This document shows, piece by piece, positions 4,671 to 18,372 of a DNA stretch of 64,000 bases (the stretch's first letter is position 1; each line of letters starts with the position of its first letter). The notes under the pieces were generated by a model. It was not told the origin of the DNA. It ran no database searches and saw only the letters and a list, made by a program, of their open reading frames with translations. Made by a program: the position numbers and the translations under genes. This stretch comes from Mugil cephalus (lineage: Eukaryota; Chordata; Actinopteri; Mugiliformes; Mugilidae). The stretch lies in NCBI RefSeq assembly GCF_022458985.1, contig NC_061772.1, positions 13,072,001 to 13,136,000 on the forward strand, in the 5' to 3' direction.

Positions 4671-5732
4671 CATGTGTGATTCAGCTCTGTCCTGTCGGTT
4701 GTTTCTGAAATATATGTCCTGACCTGAATCACAGTGAGATGCTGTGATCACGCATTCTTCAGTGTGGCCGTCATAGAGCAGAAAAGAGTGGAACAAAATT
4801 CCACCCGAACTACGTTAGAGACTGATGTCCAGTTATCAGAAGTGTTTCATTGCACCTTTATACTACTAATATCATATTAAAATCATTTTGTGTTCCTCAA
4901 CTTGCCTTTTCGTTCCTATTCGTTGTTAAATGTAATCTAAAGTAGCTACAGTATGAGTTGCACATAAAAATCAAATATATTAAAACGGGGTTGAATTCTT
5001 CTCTATTTTATTCTTTATATCCAATGACCTGAGCCATGCGCAAGCACGGTAGTTAAGGACACGTAGGATTTATCATCACCGATTACCTATCAGTGTGCAT
5101 AGGACCGATGTCCGCACGTTTGATAATTCCGAATTTACTTGCATTCTAAGTTTCAGCAAAATTTAGAACATTTAGAAAATTCTATGCACGGTTTGATAAA
5201 TGAGGCCCCAGGAATCACCTCTAGGTCTCCTCTTCAGTCTTAACAGACATTCTCGGGTCAGTTAATCACAAAAGGAGATCACGAAGCTAATCGAGCACCT
5301 GTAGGATGTGCTGGAGAAATACACGGAGGCTCCACTTTGCAATTTGCAGTACTTAAAGGATCTACTGTTGAACGGAGCCCATGTCTCGATAATGTTTTGT
5401 TCTTTCTGTGTGTTTTTATCTTTTCTCAATAATCTTAGTACGTCAGACAGACCAACTAAAACATCTGTCCTCAGGTGACCTTTTGCTGCCCTTGTCCAGG
5501 ATCTCAGCAGCCCTTGTTGCTAGGCAACATCAAAGGCAAGAATAACAATCCAAATGTTCTTTCATCTCTTGTTGTCATCTATGGAATGTGACATCATCGC
5601 ATTAGTTAAACAGCCACACAGACTCAGACAGATACTTAGACAAACGAATTATCGAATTATCGGCATAGGCTAGTCAGTTAGTTTCAAAACAGCTAAACAA
5701 ATTTAGATACACGTTTTTTAACTGGTTGTCGA
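4671..5732. other. Intergenic, sema4b to kinase cluster
   Basis: AT-rich sequence without a supported reading frame, RNA gene or recognisable transposon terminus. It separates the sema4b poly(A) signal from the block upstream of kinase copy 1 that is shared with copy 3. Confidence 0.6.
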
Positions 5733-5823
5733 CAATATTTTCTCGCGTAATTTCAAGTCACTTACACAAACGTAGATAAACAAATATTCGCTCGTTTAAA
5801 TTTTTTAAAATTTAATTTGATCG
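5733..5823 (+). promoter_or_regulatory. Shared 5' flank of PIM-like kinase copy 1
   Basis: The roughly 90 bp before the start codon recur with few changes before copy 3 (about 14127-14229), beginning at a shared AATATTTTCTCGCGTAATTT block. Upstream of this the two copies stop matching, so this is all of the 5' flank that was duplicated with the gene. It probably holds 5' UTR and perhaps the core promoter. No clear TATA box or transcription start can be assigned. Confidence 0.45.
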
Positions 5824-8621
5824 ATGGCTTCTAAATCCTCAGAGGAGATGAAGTCTCAGGGCTTTGAGAAACATGAAAGTGGGTGTGACTCCCTGCAGGA
5901 TAATGCTAAAAAACGGACTAACAAGAGGAAAGCCAGTCTGGATCAGGAGTCTGGCAAGAAAAGAAAGAGGGGTGATAGTGATAGTAAGAGTTGTAATCCC
6001 TGCAGCACAACCTTAGAGGGTGCGAGTGTGAAAGGGAGAAAGCTAAAAACCAATGCTAATGAAGATAACCCACGAAAAAAGATAAGGGGAGATAGTATGT
6101 GTGGTAATTCATATAGCGACCCTTTAGAGGGTACTAGTGTAAAGGGAAGAAAACAGAAAGCTAAAGTTAATGTTGAATTAGGAAAAATTTGTGCTGATGG
6201 TAAGAGCGTTATTGAGAGCTATCCCTGTAGCATAAAGTTAGAGGGTGTTAGTGTAGGGGGAAGAAAGCGAAAAGCTCAGTCTGATGTAGGTAGCCCTGCA
6301 AAAAAGTTGAGAACAATTAGTGGTAGTAAGCGTGGTTATCCGTGTAGTGTAGCCGTAGAGGACCCTAGTATGAAAGGGAGAAAACGAAAAAGTGAGGCTG
6401 ATGAAGATAGCCAGCGAAAAAGGATTAGGGGTGATAGTAAGAGTGGTGATCATTGCAGCGTCACAGGGGGTGCTAGTTTGAAGGAAAGAAATCAGAAAGC
6501 TAAAGTCGATGTAGATAGCCCACAAGAAAAGATTAGGTGTGACAGTAGGCGTTTTAATTCATGTAGTGACCCTTTAGAGGGTACTAGCATGAAGGTAATA
6601 AATCGGATAGCTAAAGTTGATGTTGATGGCCCAAGAAAAAAAATTAATAATGATACTGAGAGTTATTCCTGTAGTGGAAAGTTAGAGGGTGTTAGTGTAG
6701 GGGGTAGAAAGCGAAAAGCTGAGTCTGATGTAGACAACCCTCCAAAAAAGGTGAGATCTGACAGTGTATCTAGCAGTGGAGAGTTTGTCAGTGTGACTAG
6801 CATCAAGATCAGTGACGCAGACGCACCCCAAAGGACAGTTGAGGGCCTCAACACTATGGTGTTTAGTAGCACTCCTTTTTTCTCTGTCGGAGACATACCC
6901 CCAGAGTTGTGGCGCTCTGATCACGGCAGCAACTCTTCATCTTCTGATGAGGAGGGAATATACGATGGATCCTTCTCTGTGAAAACCAGCCATGGTAAGT
7001 TGATCAGTTAGCTTCAACAAATAGTCCCACATTTCTAGGCATATTCTTCTTTACCATATCATGATGTACCATAAATATGAAGCTAATTTGGCACAGATAC
7101 TAGAAACTGGAGACAGTCACCTGTGTCTCTCGGACGTTAACAACATCCACATGTGGTTATCATTTATCAGTGTGTTAATCAGTGCACTGGTGTGTGGATT
7201 TAGTTTCATTTAGACAAAGCTATATGTAAACTTTAATGTTCAAAGTGATATTGGGAAGGCTCAGGGGTTTGATATGGTATTGTATAATCTAAATGTATCC
7301 CAAACTTGACACTAATATGTCCCTGTCTGTGTTTCTATGCAGTTGAATTTCAAGATAAATATGAAAAGCTGGGCAAGCTTGGACAAGGTGGTTTTGGATC
7401 CGTTTATGAAGGCTACAGAAAGACAGATGAGCTACCAGTAAGTCTCCTTACTCTGACATTCTCTCTCTCCTCCACACACATACAAGTTTCACAGCTTTTA
7501 TATGTAACATGCTTGTGTTTCTGTCTTGCAGGTTGCGATTAAATTTATTCCCAAACATTTGGTCAAGTACAGTCAGATAGTAAGTGAATACATTCAAAAT
7601 ACATTTGTTCACATTTACAGGTTGTTATGCAGCTTTTCATATTTTTTGTCTGCATTGTTTCCTTCAGGTTAAGAATGGAAAGACGCACAACGTCATCCGG
7701 GAAGTGTACTTCATGATTAAAGCAGCAGGTGGACCAGCAGATATCCCATCTGGGAGATCTGCAGCTACCTCCCTTCTTGACTGTTTTGATCTGGAGGACC
7801 ACCTTATCCTGGTTATGGAAAGACCACGCAACTGCAAGACTCTCTTGGATTACCGCCGTGACAAAGAAGACCACCTGGCGGAAGATGAGGCCAAGGTCAT
7901 CATGGAGCAGATGATAGATGCGGCCATTGACATGCACTCGAAGGGAGTTTTTCACAGAGACATCAAACTTACCAACATCCTTGTTGAAGTTGATCCTCCT
8001 GGATCTGAGGTCCCACGGGTCCGGGTGATTGATTTTGGATGTAGCTGCCAAGAGGAGCTGGAACCTTACGATAGATTCAGTGGTATGATGTTTTGCTCTT
8101 TGTGTTAAATCAGTTTCTTTAAAAACTACAGATTTCATCTTAAAGCTTTAGGCTTTAACACTCCCTTCTATGTTACTGACTTACCTTTCTCCCTTTGTCT
8201 TTGTACTGTAGGAACCTTATGTATAGCTCCCCCAGAGTGGTTCACGGAAGGACAGTATATGGCCAGACCCACAACAGTGTGGCACCTGGGAGTACTGCTA
8301 TACAATCTGCTGGATCACCCAGGTTCATTTAAAACATCCACATATATTGCCAAGAAGATGACACTCAACTCCACACTATCAACAAGTAAGATATAAGACA
8401 TACACAGACTTTACATACAAGACAGAGAAGATGCTGAGGCATCATGTCTACATAGCAGGACACTTCAATGACACGTTTTTATCTGAATACATTAACAATT
8501 CTCTGCTTCCTCTTTGTTCTTTCCAGGATGCAAGGATTTTTTAAGGCAATGTCTGACGCCATATCCACACGACCGCATCACCTTGGAGGAGCTGAAGCAC
8601 CATCCCTGGATCAGAGAATAA
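5824..8621 (+). CDS. PIM-family-like serine/threonine kinase with basic repeat N-terminus, intact, 6 exons (copy 1)
   Basis: Exons 5824-6994, 7343-7437, 7532-7579, 7668-8082, 8212-8385 and 8527-8621 join in frame at GT-AG sites to give 665 codons and a TAA. Residues 1-390 (exon 1) are a hydrophilic, Lys/Arg/Ser-rich region with seven repeats of 36-39 residues, then an acidic serine cluster (SSSSDEE). The kinase domain starts near 396. All core elements are present: P-loop GQGGFGSV, VAIK lysine (K426), alpha-C glutamate (E450), HRDIKLTN loop (D536, N541), DFG (560-562), PPEW (583-586) and the distal DR (650-651). The PIM-type hinge ERP and the VW-LG in place of DVWSLG identify the PIM group, which is expanded in teleosts. 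The GRKRK and KKIR motifs look like nuclear localisation signals (inference). PIM kinases are typically constitutively active and regulated by abundance. The exact orthologue is unknown. Confidence 0.88.
5992..6777 (+). repeat. Coding tandem repeat, 7 units of about 108-117 bp, in kinase exon 1
   Basis: Protein units begin near residues 57, 94, 132, 171, 208, 244 and 280, anchored on a Cys-Ser (Tyr-Ser in unit 2). A typical unit reads CS-DPLEGTSVKGRK then a basic or acidic stretch ending in SP-KKIR-DS. Units 3, 4 and 7 carry GRKRK. The same unit occurs in decayed form at 9590-9960, 10915-11100, 14380-15040 and 15780-16020 in copies 2 and 3. Reading frame is kept across all units here, so the array is under coding constraint or very young. 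Confidence 0.9.
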
Positions 8622-8904: not shown

Positions 8905-9345
8905 ATGTGCCATTTAATTTAGATAGACTTAATTTAGTTTAATTTAATTCAATTCAGATTTAATTTAGTTTAATTTAATTCAGATTGACTTTAGTTACAT
9001 TTAATTCACTTTAATTCAATTCAGATTTAAATTGATTAATTCAGTTTAATTTAGCTAGTTTTAATTTAGTTAATTTTAATTCAATTCAGAATTAGTTTAA
9101 TGTAATTCCATTTAATTCAGTTCAAGTGATTTCAATTCACTTTAATTTATTTATATCCAGTTCCATATAATTGTATTCAATTCAGATTTAATTCCATTTA
9201 ATTTAATTCATTCCAGTTGTTTTCAAATAATTTAATTTAATGAAGTATGTGTAATTAAATTCACTTCAATTCACTTTAATCTAGTTTGATTCTTTGATTC
9301 AATTCCATTTATTTTAATTCTGTTCTGTTTAATGTCTTGTCTTGC
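8905..9345. repeat. Degenerate TTTAATTTAGTTTAATTC-type AT-rich tract
   Basis: Short irregular iterations of TTTAATTTAG, TTTAATTCAATTCAG and similar. The same tract follows copy 3 (about 17917-18180), so it belongs to the duplicated gene unit. An ATTAAA hexamer at 9464-9469 is a candidate poly(A) signal for copy 1. Confidence 0.75.
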
Positions 9346-9969
9346 CAGGTCATTGTTTTTACTGGAGCTTTTGTTATTTTACTTGATTGTTCAATACTTT
9401 TTTTATTCTTACCTTAGATTACATTTTTCCTCAGGGTTCTGTAAATGTAATGTCATTCTCACAATTAAATATTAAAAAAAATATTTAAAAAAAACTTTAG
9501 ACCTATTAGTGATAGTAAGAGTGGTTAGCATGTGGTTAGCAAAGCCTTAGAGGATGCTAGTGTGAAAGGAAGAAGTAAGATAGTAAGGGGTGATAGTAAG
9601 AGTGGATCATTACAGCACCACATCAGAGGGTGCTAGTGTGACGGAAAGAAATCAGAAAGCTAAAGTCAATGTAGATAGTCCACAAAAAAAGATTAGGGAT
9701 GACAGTAAGCGTTTCAATTCATGTAGTGACCCTTCACAGGGTACTAGCATGAAGGGAATAAATCAGATAGCTAAAGTCGGTGTAGTTAGCCCACAAAAAA
9801 AGGTTAGGGATGATAGTAAGCATGGTAATTCATGTTGTGACCCTTTAGAGGGTACTAGCGAGAAGGGAAGAAATCAGAAAGGTAAAGTCAATGTAGATAG
9901 CACACAAAAAAAGATTAGGGATGATAGTAAGCGTGGTAATTCATGTAGCGACCCTTTTAGAGTAAGAGT

Positions 9970-10905
9970 AAGCAAACCTTGAAAAGATAAATTCAGTACA
10001 ACCTAATTGTATTAAGTTGTTGCATATAATAATCGTAAATAAATAGATTTTTAATATTTATTGTCTTTAGTTAAATGCAAATGTTGCCGAACTTTTTCTC
10101 CTTGGTGGTTGACGGCCTAGCAACAGCTGACGTCATTAGCTACAGTAACTAAGGGGGCGGGGCCCCAAGCCCAGCGGCGGGAAGCTGAACAAAGGAAACC
10201 GTTGGAAATTGGAGCTACGCAGTAACAGCAACATCACCGCACTTACTGTAAGTTTTAAATGTTAATATTTGTATTTTGTCAATATACCAACAGTAAGTTA
10301 TAATTAGGTGCGTGTCGAAAAAAAGAGCAAAAATGTCGGGTCTGTGTATTTTATATGCTTTACCCTCTCCCAGAAGGAAAAGTTGTGCTAGCATGGTTTG
10401 TGCCTGTTAAGTTCTGTGTTTCATTTATGTTGTAAAGAGATAAAAATAAAAAATCTAACCTAATCTTTACCATCCAGTTTAAATTCAAGTGCTGCTACTT
10501 TTCTTTATGGTAAAGAATCACTTTAGAAATAATGATAATAAATGAAATGGTTATTAATATGCAAAAAATGGAAGTATTAATAATAAGAGGTCTCTGATTC
10601 AAGCAGAGCAGACTGCATCGCCTCACCAACCACCTCTTTCTCTCTCTCCCTCTAATATAAAATAACTTAATGTCTTTTTTCTCAGACACTGCTTAGGCAG
10701 GTTATTGAAATGTGTCAACTCCAAATCATGCTTTTATTTTTTCAGTTCATTTCAAGTTTCCAGTTCACATACCATTCTCCTAATTGATATTTTTGGCGCT
10801 GTGCAGATCATATTTTAATTAACTTTGAACTTGTGAGCAGAAAAAAATAAATAGTGAGTCCAAAATTTCAATTCAAGATTTGTCTTATGTTTAAAGCTTA
10901 TACAC
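9970..10905. other. Foreign block inside copy 2 repeat exon
   Basis: About 0.9 kb not homologous to the other kinase copies replaces part of a repeat unit in copy 2. No terminal inverted repeats or target duplication were found. It contains the CpG-rich promoter-like island listed separately and otherwise AT-rich sequence without a supported gene. Confidence 0.55.
10085..10247 (+). promoter_or_regulatory. CpG-rich promoter-like island with possible first exon
   Basis: Within about 150 bp there is a full palindromic CRE (TGACGTCA, 10128-10135), a GC box (GGGGGCGGGG, 10153-10162) and an E2F-like GGCGGGAA near 10176. A consensus splice donor (ACT|GTAAGT) follows after 10247. This combination is usual for vertebrate promoters with a noncoding first exon. 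No partner exon was recognised downstream. Function is inferred only. Confidence 0.4.
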
Positions 10906-11170
10906 TAAGAAATGAGAAATCTAAAGTCGATGTAGATAACTCACAAAAAAAGATTAGGGATGATAGTAAGCGCGGTAATTAATGTAGCGAACCCTTAGAG
11001 GGTATTAGCGTGAGGGGAAAAAATTAGAAAGCTAAAGTCGATGTAGGTAGCTCAAAAAAAAAATTGTGCTGATACTGAAAGCGATTGTTCCTGTAGTGGT
11101 AAGCTAGTGGGTGTTAGTGTAGGGGGCAGAAAGCAGTAATACCAAAAACAGTGCATCCAGCAGTGGAGAG

Positions 11171-11920
11171 TAGGGATGAAGCGATCCGATATTTGTATCG
11201 GTACCGATATTGAAGACAATTCTAGATCGGGTATCGGTGATAATGAGCTGATCCATATCGGCTGATCTACTTAGTCTAATTATATGCTGTGCGCTTTGAG
11301 TGACGTCATACGCAAGCACCACGCCGTGCGGAAGTCCACAGTTTTCAAAATGGAGCGAACAACACCATCGGCTATCTGGAGCCATTACACATTACCTCGG
11401 CCAACAAACTCCACAGCTACATGTAATAAATGTTTAATTCCCATTTGCACTACACTATATCAAGAGCTGATAACTATTTATTTTGGAAGTGTACCAACCA
11501 AGCTAGTGAAGCTATTGTTTTTTTTCCTAAATTTCAGCTTCTTTTATTAAAAATATAATATTTATTTCGTTTTACATTGGGTTTTGAATCCCTAATTGCG
11601 CTGACTGAACTAGTTACACTTGTTATATTTTTATGGTTAAGACTGTTTTACTGGTGAACAAATATAATTTAATAAAAAAATAAGTAATTCAGTACATTTA
11701 TATCTGTTTATTTGTTTTTTTTTTATAGGAAATTGGAAAGAAATGTTTAGGTCTGATGTCGCCTTGCACAAAAGAATGATCCCAGTCTTTTCTATGCAAT
11801 GAAACTTACCATTTGTTACCATAATTTTCGCGCCGTTTTTCTGTATCGGATCGGTATCGGCTGATACTAAACCTCAGATATCGGTATCGGTGGTGAAAAG
11901 GGCGGATCGGTGCATCCCTA
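11171..11920. mobile_element. hAT-type non-autonomous transposon in copy 2
   Basis: A 750-bp element with inverted ends TAGGGATGAAGCGATCCG (left) and TAGGGATGCACCGATCCG (right, reverse complement). It is flanked by exact 8-bp duplications GTGGAGAG (11163-11170 and 11921-11928), the hAT hallmark. The uninterrupted target is seen in copy 1 at 6776-6783. Inside, a short + frame from about 11350 (MERTTPSAIWSHY, then a CNKC pair) resembles the start of a BED zinc finger. This suggests internal deletion of an autonomous parent. Confidence 0.92.
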
Positions 11921-12824
11921 GTGGAGAGTTTGTTGTGTGACAAAAATCAAGATTAGCAGTGACGCAGATGCACCCCAAAGGATAATGGAAGGCCTCAACA
12001 CTATGATGTTGAGTCTTTTTTTCTCTGTCAGAGACATACTCCCAGGGTTGTGGCGCTCTGATCACGGCAGCAACTCTTCATCTTCTAATAAGGAGGGAAT
12101 ATACGACGGATCCTTCACTGTGAAAACCAGCCACAGTAAGTTGATCAGTTAGCTTCAACGAATAGTCCCACATTTCTAGGCATATTCTTCTTTACCATAT
12201 CATGATGTACCATAAATATGAAGCTACAACCAGAAGCTGATAAGCTTAATTTTACACAAATAAAATAGCTAAAATTCCTTAAAATTATTGGATTTTTGTA
12301 GTTTTGTAAAGTGTTTAAGTGATATATGCAGAAAATATCAGAAAAGGACCTGAATGCGGACCTGAATCATCTGGGAGACCTGCAGTTATCTCCCTTCTTG
12401 ACTGTTTTGATCTGGAGGACCACCTCATCCTGGTTATGGAAAGACCACGCCACTCCAAGACTCTCTTTGATTACCACAGAAACAAAGGAGACTACCTGAC
12501 AAAAGATGAGGCCAAGCCACTGAAGCTGTAAAGTTAGATTAGTTATATCTTTCTCATATGGTGACGCTCGTTATATATGGTCACATTGTATGGTGGCAAA
12601 CATTTTCACTGTCTTCTAACGCAGGTCATAATGGAGCACATGATAGATGCGGCCAGTTTTTCACAGAGACATCAAGCTAAGCAACATCCTCGTTGATTTT
12701 GATCCTCCTGGATCTGAAGTCCCACAGGGTCCGGGTGATTGATTTTGGATGTAACTGCTTAGAGGAGATGGAACTTGATGATAGTTACAGTGGTAAGATA
12801 TGTTCTGCTCCTTTTGTTAAATCA

Positions 12825-13122
12825 TCTCATCTCATCTCATCTTCTACCACCGCTTAATCCTCACTAGGGTCGTGGGGGTGCTGGAGCCTAGACCAGCTGC
12901 CATTAGGTGAAAGGCGGAGTACACCCTGGACAAGTCGCCAGCCTATCACAGAACCATTCGTATTCACACCTAAGGTCAATTTAGAGTCGCCAATCAGCCT
13001 AACGATCATGTCTTTAGAGGTGGGAGGAAACTGGAGTACCTGGAGAAAACCCATGCAGACACAGGGAGAACATGCATGAGGCCCGAGCTGGACTCGAATC
13101 CAGACCTTCTCGCTGGGAGTGC
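12825..13122 (-). mobile_element. Teleost dispersed retroposon-like repeat in copy 2 intron
   Basis: Starts with a (TCTCA)n tract and TCTTCTACC-CCGCTTAATCC. It continues through blocks typical of a very common fish repeat (GGGTGCTGGAGCCTA, GGTCAATTTAGAGTCGCCAA, GAGAAAACCCATGCAGACAC). It breaks the intron sequence aaatca|gtttcttt that is intact in copy 1, with an ATCA direct repeat on both sides (12821-12824, 13123-13126). The pentamer tract would be the 3' tail if the element runs on the minus strand. The family name is not certain. Confidence 0.65.
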
Positions 13123-14065
13123 ATCAGTTTCTTTGAAAAACTTTGAAAAAAGCCATGCTTTAACAGCCCTTCTATCTTACTGATCTGCCTGTCTCCCTTT
13201 GTGTTTGTACTGTGGGAACCTTATGTATAGCTCCCCCAGAGTGGTTCATGGAAGGACGGTATATGGCCAGTACTGCTATACAATCTGCTGGATCACCCAG
13301 GTTCATTTAAAACGTCCACATATCTTGCCAAGAAGATGACACTCAACTCCACACTATCAAAAGGTAAGATATAAGACATACACAGACTTTACATACAAGA
13401 CAGAGAAGATGCTGAGGCATCATGTACATAACATAACATATTGTGTTCAGTTCATTTTAGATGGAAGACATTTGCTTAAGTTAGTTAATACCTACAGGAT
13501 ATGGTAAATACAATTCATTAATTACAGGAGCCTTTGTCGCTCACCTTAAATCTACAAAAGATGTTTTTTACATCACTACACTCAACATGAGTGTCAACAG
13601 TGCTCAGTGAGAATATTTTCTGCCACACAGGTATTGTTATAATAAATCATCTGTGGATTTTGAGGGTAAAATGATATTAAGAGAGAAAAAAATATTACTT
13701 TAAATGGAACAGAAAGGGTAAGGAGTGAAAAGGCAGGACACTTCTGTGACAAATGATTAACTGGCTTTATGCTAAATTAACACTTCTTCTCTGCTTCTTT
13801 GTTCTTTCCAGGATGCAAGGATTTTTTAAAACAATGTCTGACACTATATCCACACGACTGCATCACCTTAGGGGAGTTGAAGCACCATCCCTGGATCAGA
13901 GAATAAGCATAAGACACCTTACATTGACACATTCAGATGCCATAATGCATCTCCTCATTGTTGCATTATGGCATCTATGAGTCAGGGATTTTTTGAATGT
14001 AAAATGGGGACCTATACAATATTAGTCTGTTGGTCATATTGTGATCAGTTTACATTTATATAACA

Positions 14066-14088: not shown

Positions 14089-15043
14089 CCCTAATACTAA
14101 TACTTTCTTTCTTTTAGCTCATTATCGATAATATTTTCTCGCGTAATTTCAAGACAGCTACACAAATGTAGATATACAAATATTTGCTCGTTTTAATGTT
14201 TTAACATTTAATTTGGTCTTTTCACTGCGATGGCTTCTAAGTTCTCAGAGATAAAGTCTCAGGGCTTTGAGAAACATCAAAGTGGGTGTGACTCCCTGCA
14301 GGATGATACTGTCAAGGAAAAGAAGAGGGGTGATAGTGATAGTAAGAGTTGTAATCCCTGCAGTACAACCTTAGAGGGTGCGAAAGGAAGACAGCGAAAA
14401 GCCGATGCTAATCAAGATAGCCCACGAAAAAAGACAAAGAGAGATAGTATGCGTGGTAATTCATGTAGCGACCCTTTAGAGGGTACTAGCGTGAAGGGAA
14501 GAAAACAGAAAGCTAAAGTTAATGTTAAATTAGGAAAAATTTGTGCTGATAGTAAGAGCGTTATTGAGAGTTATTCCTGTAGTATAAAGTTAGAGGATGT
14601 TAGCGCAGGGGGAAGAAAGCGAAAAGCTCAGTCTGATGTAGGTAGCCCTGCAAAAAAGTTGAGAACAATTAGTGGTAGTAAGCGTGGTTATCCGTGTAGT
14701 GTAGCTGTAGAGGACCCTGGTATGAAAGGGACAAAGCGAAAAAGTGAGGCTGATGAAGATAGACAGTGAAAGAGGATAAGGGGTGATAGTAAGAGTGGTG
14801 ATCATTGCAGCATCACAGGGGGTGCTAGTTTGAAGTATAGAAATCAGAAATCTAATGTTGATATAGTTAGCCCACAAGAAAAGATTAGGTGTGACAGTAA
14901 GCGTTTTAATTCATGTAGTGACCCTTTAGAGGGTACTAGCATGAAGGTAATAAATCAGAAAGCTAAAGTTGATGTAGTTAGTCCACAAAAAAAGGATTGG
15001 GGAGGATAGTAAACATTTTAAATTATGTAGTGACCCTTTAGAG

Positions 15044-15776
15044 CAGGGGTGCTCACACTTTTTCAGCATGCGAGCTACTTTAAAAAATGGCCAAGTCAAA
15101 GTGATCTACCTACTACAAAAATGCAAAACATATATTTATTTATAAATATATTGAAGATTCTTTGTACAATGTATATTGATGTACCTTGCATAACCGCATG
15201 AGCCAATATTGCACAACACAACACAATTAACTATGCACATTTTTGAAGTAGGTTGTGTGAAAAATGACTGCTGTCCGGACAACTGGCATTTTAATTCCTT
15301 CACCTTTCTCTTTCTCAGCTCGTTTTTGCCGCTCCACATTTCCCTTCTTTGGTATTGCGATGGTAGACTGGCAGATGAGGCAAACGCACTTTGAAAATGT
15401 CATCGTGAAAAAAAAGTCCTCCTCCCATTCCGTATGAAAGTGATACGTTTTGGTTTTCTTACTTGGTTCAGCTCCCCCACTCATGTTTATACCCTTTCTT
15501 GAGTTCAAGAGAATAAAACGAGGGCTTAAAATTGTAGGTAACCAACTCGCTAGCTAGCTTGTTAGTTGTGCTGCACTTAGCACCGTTGTTTGCACATGCG
15601 TGGTGACCTAAGTGTCAGAAAAATTCAGATGTCATCTGACTGGCTGCCCTGTATATCAATCAAGTGGCGGGATGGATGATAGGCTGACATCTATTTTTTC
15701 TTTAATGTCATGCGATCTACCCATACTACCTTTGCGATCGACTGGTAGATCGTGATCGACGTAATGAGCACCCCTG
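15044..15776 (-). mobile_element. hAT (Charlie-like) non-autonomous transposon in copy 3
   Basis: A 733-bp element with inverted ends CAGGGGTGCTCA on both sides and exact 8-bp duplications CTTTAGAG (15036-15043, 15777-15784). On the minus strand, 15508-15227 encodes a frame with FHTEWEEDFFFTMTFSKC, CLICQSTIAIPKKGNVER. This matches the N-terminal BED-like finger common to GTF2IRD2/ZBED-type hAT proteins. The frame then runs into unrelated residues where the rest of the transposase has been deleted. Confidence 0.92.
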
Positions 15777-16240
15777 CTTTAGAGGGTACTAGCATGAAGG
15801 GAATAAATCAGAAAACTAAAGTCGATGTAGTTAGTCCACAGAAAAATATTAGGGATGCTAGTAAGTATGGTAATTAACATAGCGACCATTTAGAGGGTAT
15901 TAGCATGAAGGGAATAAATCAGAAAGCTAATGTTGATGTTGATGACCCAAGAAAAAAAATGAATGATACTGAGAGCGGTTATTCCTGTAGTGGAAAGTTA
16001 GAGGGTGTTAGTGTAGTCAGACGCACCCCAAAGGACAGTTGAGGGTCTCAACATTATGGTGTTTTTTCTCTGTCGGAGACATACCCCCAGAGTTGTGGCG
16101 CTCTGATCACGGCAGCAACTCTTCATCTTCTGATGAGGAGGGAATATACGACGGATCCTTCTCTGTGAAAACCAGCCACGGTAAGTTGATCATTTAGCTT
16201 CAACAAATAGTCCCACATTTCTAGGCATATTCTTTACCAT

Positions 16241-16350
16241 ACAGGGTCTGATGTTAAGGTTTTTTCCTACTTGCCCTGTTGGGCAAGTACTTCTCAAATT
16301 TACTTCAATTTACTGCACACAGTGCAAAACATAACTGCCCCGTCATTAGG
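16241..16350. repeat. Fragment of dispersed repeat in copy 3 intron 1
   Basis: Sequence around TTGCCCTGTTGGGCAAGTAC has no counterpart in copy 1 and replaces the start of exon 2. It looks like a piece of a dispersed fish repeat. A short palindrome (TTGCCC/GGGCAA) lies within it. Confidence 0.4.
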
Positions 16351-17143
16351 GTTTCCACAGGCTACAGAAAGACAGATGAGCTACCAGTAAGTCTCCTTAC
16401 TCTGACATTCTCTCTCTCATACAAGTCTCACAGCTTTTATATGAAAAGGATAGAATGAAACATGCTCGTGTTTCTGTCTTGCAGGTCGCGATTAAATTTA
16501 TTCCCAAACAGTCAGATAGTAAGTGAATACATTGAAAATAGATTCTGTCACCGTGTGTTCACTGACTATTGCTATTGCTGAAGCAGTGCAACACAACATT
16601 ATTGAAGCATTTCGTTCACATTTACAGGTTGTTATGCAGTTTTTCATATTTTTTGTCTGCATTGTTTCCTTCAGGTTGAGAATCGAAAGAAGCACGTCAT
16701 CCGGGAAGTGTACTTCATGATTAAAGCAGCAGGTGGACCTGAATCATCTGGGAGATCTGCAGCTACCTCCCTTCTTGACTGTTTTGATCTGGAGGACCAC
16801 CTTATCCTGGTTATGGAAAGACCACGCAACTGCAAGACTCTCTTGGATTACCGCCGTGACAAAGAAGACCACCTGGCGGAAGATGAGGCCAAGGTCATCA
16901 TGGAGCAGATGATAGATGCGGCCATTGACATGCACTCGAAGGGAGTTTTTCACAGAGACATCAAGCTAAGCAACATCCTTGTTGAAGTTGATCCTGTTGG
17001 ATGTAGCTGCCAAGAGGAGCTGGAACCTTATGATAGATTCAGTGGTATGATGTTTTGCTCTTTGTGTTAAATCAGTTGACACTGAACTCCACACCATCAA
17101 CAAGTAAGCTATAAGACATACACAGATTTTGCATATAAGACAG

Positions 17144-17725
17144 TCAGTGTGTTTACATGCAGAGATTAATCGAGCTATGCTCAAAATTCAAATTTCTCAC
17201 TACAGTCCTTGTCCCAGTTTACATGCAGCGCAAGAAAATCCAATAACTGTTCTCCTCTTCCACACTAGGTGGCGATACGTGTCTTTTCAGCGGGATAATA
17301 CCACGTTAATACGGGCCGATTTCTGGGTAACCTGTTACGTGATATAATAAACGAGTCGTTCATGCGGGGGACCGGCATTTCATACCGGATAATTGTACAT
17401 TTTTTAACCTTATACGTAATGTTCGCGCTACTTCTGATGCAGGTAAGATCCACGCTATCCCTCAGATGGCTCCTTTTCTCTTCTTCTTCTTCTAGGCCCG
17501 ACTTTCTTGGACGTGTTTGTTCCGGGGTCACACGCCAGCGCAGCGGTGGTGGAGCATGCGCACACACATTATCCGTTTGAAAACTCTGATTCCAATCGCA
17601 TTATCCGGGTGTCTCAATCGGACAATGAGAACTCCGATTTTAATCCGAGTAACGTGTTTACATGCACTTAAGTTCTCCAATTAAGGCAATAATTCTTTTT
17701 TTTCACGTGCATGTAAACGCACTGA
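17144..17725. mobile_element. MITE with TCAGTG-GTTTACATGCA termini, in copy 3 last intron
   Basis: A 582-bp insertion absent from copy 1, whose intron reads gacagagaagatgctgagg without a break. The ends are inverted repeats: TCAGTGTGTTTACATGCA on the left and TCAGTGCGTTTACATGCA on the right (reverse complement). The short ambiguous flanking duplication (AG or less) does not settle the superfamily. Related copies lie at 18479-18612 (inverted) and about 46821-47003. Confidence 0.8.
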
Positions 17726-17916
17726 GAGAAGATGCTGAGGACACTTCTATGACACATTTTTATCTGAATAAATTAACACTTCTCTGTTTCTTCTTTGTTT
17801 TTACCAGGATGCACAATTTTTTTAAGACAATGTCTGACGCCATATCCACACGACCGCATCACCTTGGAGGAGCTGAAGCACCATCCCTGGATCAGAGAAT
17901 AAGCATAAGACACCCC

Positions 17917-18372
17917 CTTTAATTTAGATAGATTTTATTAATTTCAGTTCATTTCAGTTCACTTTAGTTTAGTCCGATCAGTTCTATTGAATTTAATTCA
18001 ATTCAGATTTAATTTAGTTTTATTTAATACAATTTAGTTGGATGTAATTTAATTCAGTTCAATTCAATTCAGCTCATTTCCATTCACTTTAATTTAGTGA
18101 AGCACGTGTAATTAAATTCACTTCAATTCACTTTAATTTAGTTTGATTTAATTTAATTTCTTTTAATTAAGTTCCATTTAATGTCTTGTCTTGCCAGGTC
18201 ATTGTTTTTCCTAGAGATTTTGTTATTTTACTTCATTGTTCAATACTTAGTTATTCTTAACTTAGATAACATGTTTCCTCAGGGTGTAAATGGTATGTCA
18301 TTCTCACAATTAAACAATTATATATTAAAATGCTTCTTGAAATTAATTTTCAAATGCAGTATTCTTCGGACC
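17917..18372. repeat. AT-rich tract and 3' flank of copy 3, homologous to that of copy 1
   Basis: Begins TTTAATTTAGATAG like the tract at 8912. It ends in sequence matching the 3' flank of copy 1 around 9350-9505 (TCTTGCCAGGTCATTGTTTT and the CTCACAATTAAA region). This marks the 3' limit of the duplication unit. The C-rich microsatellite of copy 1 is missing here. Confidence 0.75.

Follow-up and report, generated by a model that had tools for sequence, protein, structure and literature searches.

An intact PIM-like gene with predicted Ser/Thr kinase activity was found in Mugil cephalus, and its long first exon encodes an array of basic repeat units that resemble nuclear localization signals (NLSs). 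The gene, called copy 1 here, is the only intact one of three tandem copies arranged in the same direction in the window, a stretch of 64,000 nucleotides (G000:C3:13072001-13136000). The explanation that I favor as a whole, with moderate confidence and from sequence comparison, is that copy 1 is a fish-expanded PIM-like kinase whose exon 1 has grown by the duplication of one basic NLS segment. Its front end does not look like a novel type of protein but like a probable nuclear-entry signal that was amplified locally. The comparisons were made within one genome (634.8 Mb in 24 contigs) or against the PDB and family libraries.

The ORF at positions 5824-7011 has an ATG start and encodes 395 amino acid residues. 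It is the longest stop-to-stop frame of the window (396 residues), the runner-up having 199. The coding part of exon 1 extends to position 6994, where a phase-1 GT donor follows, and the final residues of the ORF are a read-through into the intron. Exon 1 (5824..6994, on the forward strand like all the features described below for the three copies) thus has 390 codons plus one base, while its other two forward frames contain 29 and 76 stop codons. It is followed by exon 2 (7343..7437) with the glycine loop GQGGFGSV, exon 3 (7532..7579) with the VAIK lysine, exon 4 (7668..8082) with the ERP hinge, HRD, and DFG, exon 5 (8212..8385) with APPEW, and exon 6 (8527..8621) with the end of the C-lobe and the stop codon. 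As deduced from the sequence, the spliced product has 665 residues, the six exons are open and in frame, and GT/AG borders are present at 5/5 introns. The intact frame claimed in the initial annotation was thus confirmed over all six exons.

The same annotation had called the kinase PIM-like, and the database comparison agrees. The best PDB match of the kinase domain is PIM-2 (2iwi, E 7.4e-43), whereas the first non-PIM chain scores 3.8e-18. Among the best 60 of 304 matches, the top 42 are without exception chains of PIM-1 or PIM-2, with E values of 2.4e-39 or lower. The ERP hinge is a motif typical of PIM kinases, and VMERPRNCK of copy 1 is aligned to VLERPLPAQ of PIM-2. The catalytic motifs VAIK, HRDIKLTN, DFG, and APPEW (Lys, HRD, DFG, and APE) are also found in the spliced frame, and the earlier remark that the kinase motifs are all there is supported. 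Copy 1 also has the intron phases of pim genes, namely phase 1 for the intron that directly precedes the kinase and phase 0 for the next two. On the other hand, the short N-terminus (~30 residues) of the PIM family, which is a trait of the conventional PIM members and not of the domain family, is replaced by the 390 codons of exon 1.

Two conventional pim genes of the same genome, L047 (on contig C1) and L048 (C22), and the human PIM-1 and PIM-2 structures share the kinase family and the ERP hinge with copy 1. Read by eye, L047, L048, and copy 1 are alike in having a phase-1 intron just before the kinase and a phase-0 intron next, while the third intron, of phase 0, is matched in position and phase in L048 only. 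The conventional exon 1 of L047 and L048 has about 26-30 codons (its end being read by eye), starts with MLLSK, and is devoid of a basic array. Because the intron position and phase are shared, the long exon of copy 1 occupies the place of the short conventional exon. A large pim expansion is known in zebrafish. According to one report, teleosts have numerous expanded pim-like genes (PMC12562241). The expanded genes of Paralichthys olivaceus described there resemble those found here in being of PIM type beyond pim1-3 and in having pseudogene-like members; an N-terminal repeat array is unmentioned in the passages compared, the likeness being one of descriptions, not of protein sequences (PMC12562241). 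None of the listed titles and abstract beginnings, from a literature collection with few subscription journals, dealt with a PIM kinase whose N-terminus carries a repeat array, of NLSs or otherwise.

The array begins with a partial and diverged unit, KKRTNKRK...KKRKR (5899..5976, residues 26-51), and continues with seven complete units (5977..6762, residues 52-313). Units 1-4 are located at 5977-6093, 6094-6201, 6202-6318, and 6319-6435, and units 5-7 at 6436-6543, 6544-6654, and 6655-6762. The complete units are 36-39 residues long and share 34-72% amino acid identity with one another, and a DNA-level repeat search recovered them independently as the repeat families D1 and D2. Thus, the basic, NLS-like repeats of 36-39 residues noticed at first are real, and their number of seven is right for the complete units but becomes eight if the partial one is counted. 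Between the array and the kinase domain lies a serine-rich acidic tail (6763..6993) with a net charge of -7, in agreement with the acidic Ser cluster noted there. Tandem Repeats Finder did not list the array of copy 1, but it did report arrays at 9623-9956 and 14841-15043, in the broken copies. At the nucleotide level, the closest pairs are units 2 and 6 (77%) and units 3 and 7 (83%). Since these pair best, the pattern points to the duplication of a block of four units within the array. However, unit 1 is 75% identical to unit 4 and 71% identical to unit 5, which is at odds with a simple block duplication.

In a bipartite NLS, some 10-12 residues separate one basic cluster from the other. The strict pattern KR/RK-x10-12-K(K/R)x(K/R) has 8 overlapping starts in exon 1, within five units, against a mean of 0.09 in composition shuffles (0/2000 reach 8); since the shuffles preserve the composition and not the repetition, a motif of one ancestral unit gets counted several times, and the count partly mirrors the duplication itself. 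The monopartite pattern K(K/R)x(K/R) occurs 6 times in exon 1, a count reached by 10/2000 shuffles. The two basic clusters with the expected spacing are kept in 5/8 units. The initial annotation had described a central basic patch in the repeats and several potential nuclear-import or nucleic-acid-binding modules; the bipartite pattern is present in the partial unit and units 1, 3, 4, and 7, but not in units 2, 5, and 6. The phosphorylation-site preference of PIM kinases is the basis for reading (K/R)xRxx(S/T) as a candidate site. Exon 1 has six such sites (reached by 1/2000 shuffles), and six of the 8 units close with this basophilic-kinase-type sequence.

The net charge over the array is +22, and most units contain a basic cluster. 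Exon 1 matched no Pfam family and no sequence of a solved structure in the PDB at E up to 1. In a charge-hydropathy comparison, which takes only the composition into account, exon 1 (0.386 vs. a boundary of 0.432) and the array (0.382 vs. 0.443) fall on the disordered side, whereas the tail alone (0.460 vs. 0.446) and the kinase (0.457 vs. 0.419) fall on the folded side. By its composition, the array resembles a disordered chain.

Copies 2 and 3 are broken. In copy 2 (9489..13915), one repeat piece lies at 9489-9962 and another, with three stop codons, at 10907-11134, and the exon-1 tail (11920-12226) has a TAG. Its exon 4 is split over three frames, another TAG lies in the exon-5 piece, and no match was found in this copy to the start of exon 1 or to exons 2-3. 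Copy 3 (14230..17911) has a TGA in unit 4, loses the frame further on, and has a deletion at the DFG, while exon 2 lacks its first part and exon 5 is mostly missing. Copies 1 and 3 are collinear over units 1-6, with 85.7% DNA identity across 5716-6641. Because of this collinearity, the array is, as judged from the alignment, older than the duplication that gave rise to copies 1 and 3. Two insertions are present in copy 3. One of them (15044-15776) interrupts the array, has the inverted ends CAGGGGTGCTCA/TGAGCACCCCTG, and sits between two copies of CTTTAGAG; it is hAT-like, and I take it to belong to the hAT class by its end features. The other one (17144-17725) lies just after the exon-5 remnant and has 18-nt inverted ends (TCAGTGTGTTTACATGCA) that are 94% complementary.

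Is the array found elsewhere in the genome? When the genome was searched with exon 1, 8 matches were obtained at E up to 0.001, all in the cluster (11/11 candidates scored), although this search missed a diverged segment on contig C18, and distant single units could likewise escape it. The kinase as the query had 25 matches, through which PIM-like paralogues were located on C18, on C15, and at 28.1 Mb of C3. In the C18 paralogue (L044, G000:C18 20.882-20.885 Mb), the kinase stretches are 48-59% identical to copy 1. Like exon 1 of copy 1, its exon 1b has a phase-1 donor, a VKT-(S/N) end, and a tail rich in serine, and it contains a segment that resembles a repeat unit. The segment in this exon before the kinase is a single one, PCLSMVEDPNQTRKRKKSHEEEPPKKRVRG, and the exon ends with SSTSSSSAVKEMHDMPFLVKTNR followed by the phase-1 donor, the corresponding end of copy 1 being SNSSSSDEEGIYDGSFSVKTSH. 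The C18 gene differs from copy 1 in having one unit instead of eight and in that its exon 1a has remained unfused and has a GTAAGT donor of its own. A dispersed transposon-borne exon, which the initial annotation had named as a danger to its reading, is not supported, since 8/8 genome matches at E up to 0.001 lie inside the cluster and the homologous C18 exon has the same phase-1 donor. Its view that no PIM architecture like this one is described is not supported as it stands in this genome, where PIM-like paralogues have N-terminal extensions with basic segments, that of C18 with one unit.

The alignment of the array with the first 45 residues of the C18 exon scored 77, while the largest score of 1000 shuffles was 54. 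Unit 4 scored 74 against the C18 segment (largest of 500 shuffles, 45) and unit 1 scored 66 (largest, 53). The scores of units 3 and 7 were reached by 2/500 and 4/500 shuffles, whereas units 2, 5, and 6 were no better than many shuffles (396/500, 109/500, and 302/500 as good, respectively). For the serine-rich tail against the C18 tail, 7/1000 shuffles were as good. A profile made from the seven units scored 6.4 bits on C18, with 10/3000 shuffles as good, compared with 54/3000 for C15 and 126/3000 for C3 28.1 Mb. When the genome was searched in reverse with the C18 exon, unit 4 came third (E 0.96), after the exon itself and a place on C2 (0.39). The count of bipartite patterns is not unusual in the C3 28.1 Mb paralogue (314/1000 shuffles) and only weakly unusual in the C15 paralogue (43/1000). 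In summary, the evidence for homology to the array appears good for C18, because the direct alignment, the exon position, the tail, and the phase come together; it appears weak for C15, and homology is not shown for C3 28.1 Mb.

By eye, an unfused exon 1a ending in a phase-1 donor was recognized in both the C18 and the C3 28.1 Mb paralogues. The bases around the C18 donor are identical to copy 3 at 22/27 positions (0/1000 shuffles as good) and to copy 1 at 21/27 positions (3/1000 shuffles as good). In copies 1 and 3, this donor-like site continues in frame for about 21 nucleotides and on into the array. I infer that the intron between exons 1a and 1b has been nearly lost and the exons fused. 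Its putative remnant in copy 1 would be the 21 nucleotides, now 7 codons, at 5879..5899, whose borders were drawn by eye.

Is exon 1 under selection? When copy 1 was compared with the pseudogene copy 3 at 252 codons of their collinear part, dN was lower than dS (Fisher p = 0.06). The test covered the gap-free codons of 5824-6641 (about 251-252), with the stop codon of copy 3 skipped; the rest of exon 1, where copy 3 has an interruption and is no longer in frame, was excluded. The gaps between the two copies within 5824-6641 are 3, 45, and 6 nucleotides long, that is, all multiples of three (3/3). Among the units themselves, dN was lower than dS in 19/21 pairs, which are not independent of each other. 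These results weakly suggest a constraint on exon 1. It is not proved, because copies 1 and 3 differ to much the same extent at each codon position (21/255, 17/255, and 20/254). The divergence between the two copies is patchy. It is 0.017, 0.036, and 0.172 in introns (compared over 6995-8621 vs. 16183-17911), dS is 0.120 in exon 1, 0.054 in exon 4, and 0.119 in exon 6, and 15/108 bases differ upstream. Because of this patchiness, gene conversion may have occurred between copies 1 and 3, blurring the dating.

In the favored explanation, copy 1 is an intact member of the fish-expanded group of PIM-like Ser/Thr kinases. Its exon 1 may have been lengthened as a basic segment of some 37 residues, with an RKRK-x9/10-KKxR bipartite NLS, was duplicated in tandem and in frame, and the fusion of exons 1a and 1b by near-complete intron loss may have preceded or accompanied the growth of the array. 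The array is older than the local gene duplication, and only copy 1 is still intact. The most likely role of the array, as far as its motifs tell, is multivalent nuclear targeting of the PIM-like kinase. It may serve as a disordered, multivalent docking tail for importin-alpha, by which the kinase accumulates in the nucleus or nucleolus, and the closing (K/R)xRxx(S/T) sites could be phosphorylated by the kinase itself or by another basophilic kinase, tuning import. A bolder and quite improbable version is that the array is a self-substrate; with units in which a bipartite NLS is coupled to a (K/R)xRxx(S/T) site, the kinase would phosphorylate its own tail at many sites to make nuclear entry graded or switch-like, with a steepness that has evolved by unit duplication.

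The repeats might instead be a coding minisatellite drifting near-neutrally in a disordered tail, for which one NLS is enough and the copy number is functionless. I regard this as possible but on the whole unlikely. It is favored by the three complete units without the NLS pattern, by the weakness of the selection signal (p = 0.06, with nearly even codon-position differences between copies 1 and 3), and by the breakage of two of the three copies. However, the frame and the lysine/arginine clusters persist in 5/8 units, 3/3 gaps in the exon-1 alignment with copy 3 (5824-6641) preserve the frame, and the 19/21 unit pairs with dN below dS also argue against drift. The absence of a Pfam family or a solved relative at E up to 1 and the close fit to bipartite NLS spacing speak against a module mainly for DNA or RNA binding or for nucleolar retention rather than import, although they are compatible with nucleic-acid binding; this is improbable in my estimation, even though a net charge of +22 and a basic cluster in most units are what recommend it.

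In Japanese flounder (Paralichthys olivaceus), many expanded pim genes lie near or overlap piRNA clusters and have been proposed to act as pseudogenes, according to the report cited above (PMC12562241). Because of this overlap, a role as a pseudogene or piRNA source is a fair rival, above all for copies 2 and 3. That copy 1 itself is a recent pseudogene or a piRNA-source locus making little protein also has the adjoining broken copies on its side, but it seems doubtful in view of the six open exons, the GT/AG borders at 5/5 introns, and the intact catalytic motifs. If amplification of an NLS segment is the right reading, a long and probably disordered tail can be added to a compact kinase through the duplication of a basic segment in the kinase's own first exon. 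The series would be seen within one genome, from the short exon of conventional pim genes through the one-unit paralogue to copy 1 with about eight units. If the sites are real, it would offer a natural test of how the copy number of NLSs and phosphorylation sites sets nuclear import.

At the Rfam gathering thresholds, no RNA gene was found in the window, and ARAGORN found no tRNA in it. Copies 1 and 3 are each followed downstream by AT-rich tracts of simple repeats such as ATTTA and TTCAG (8912-9210 and 17943-18182, respectively), and these tracts match each other. Beside the C18 PIM-like gene, a run of C2H2 zinc-finger-like reading frames was recognized by eye on the reverse strand (L044, 701-1902). 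In the C15 PIM-like gene (L045, 3252-4472), the N-terminus and most of the kinase lie in one open frame with one interruption left, and the gene looks as it would after intron loss or retroposition.
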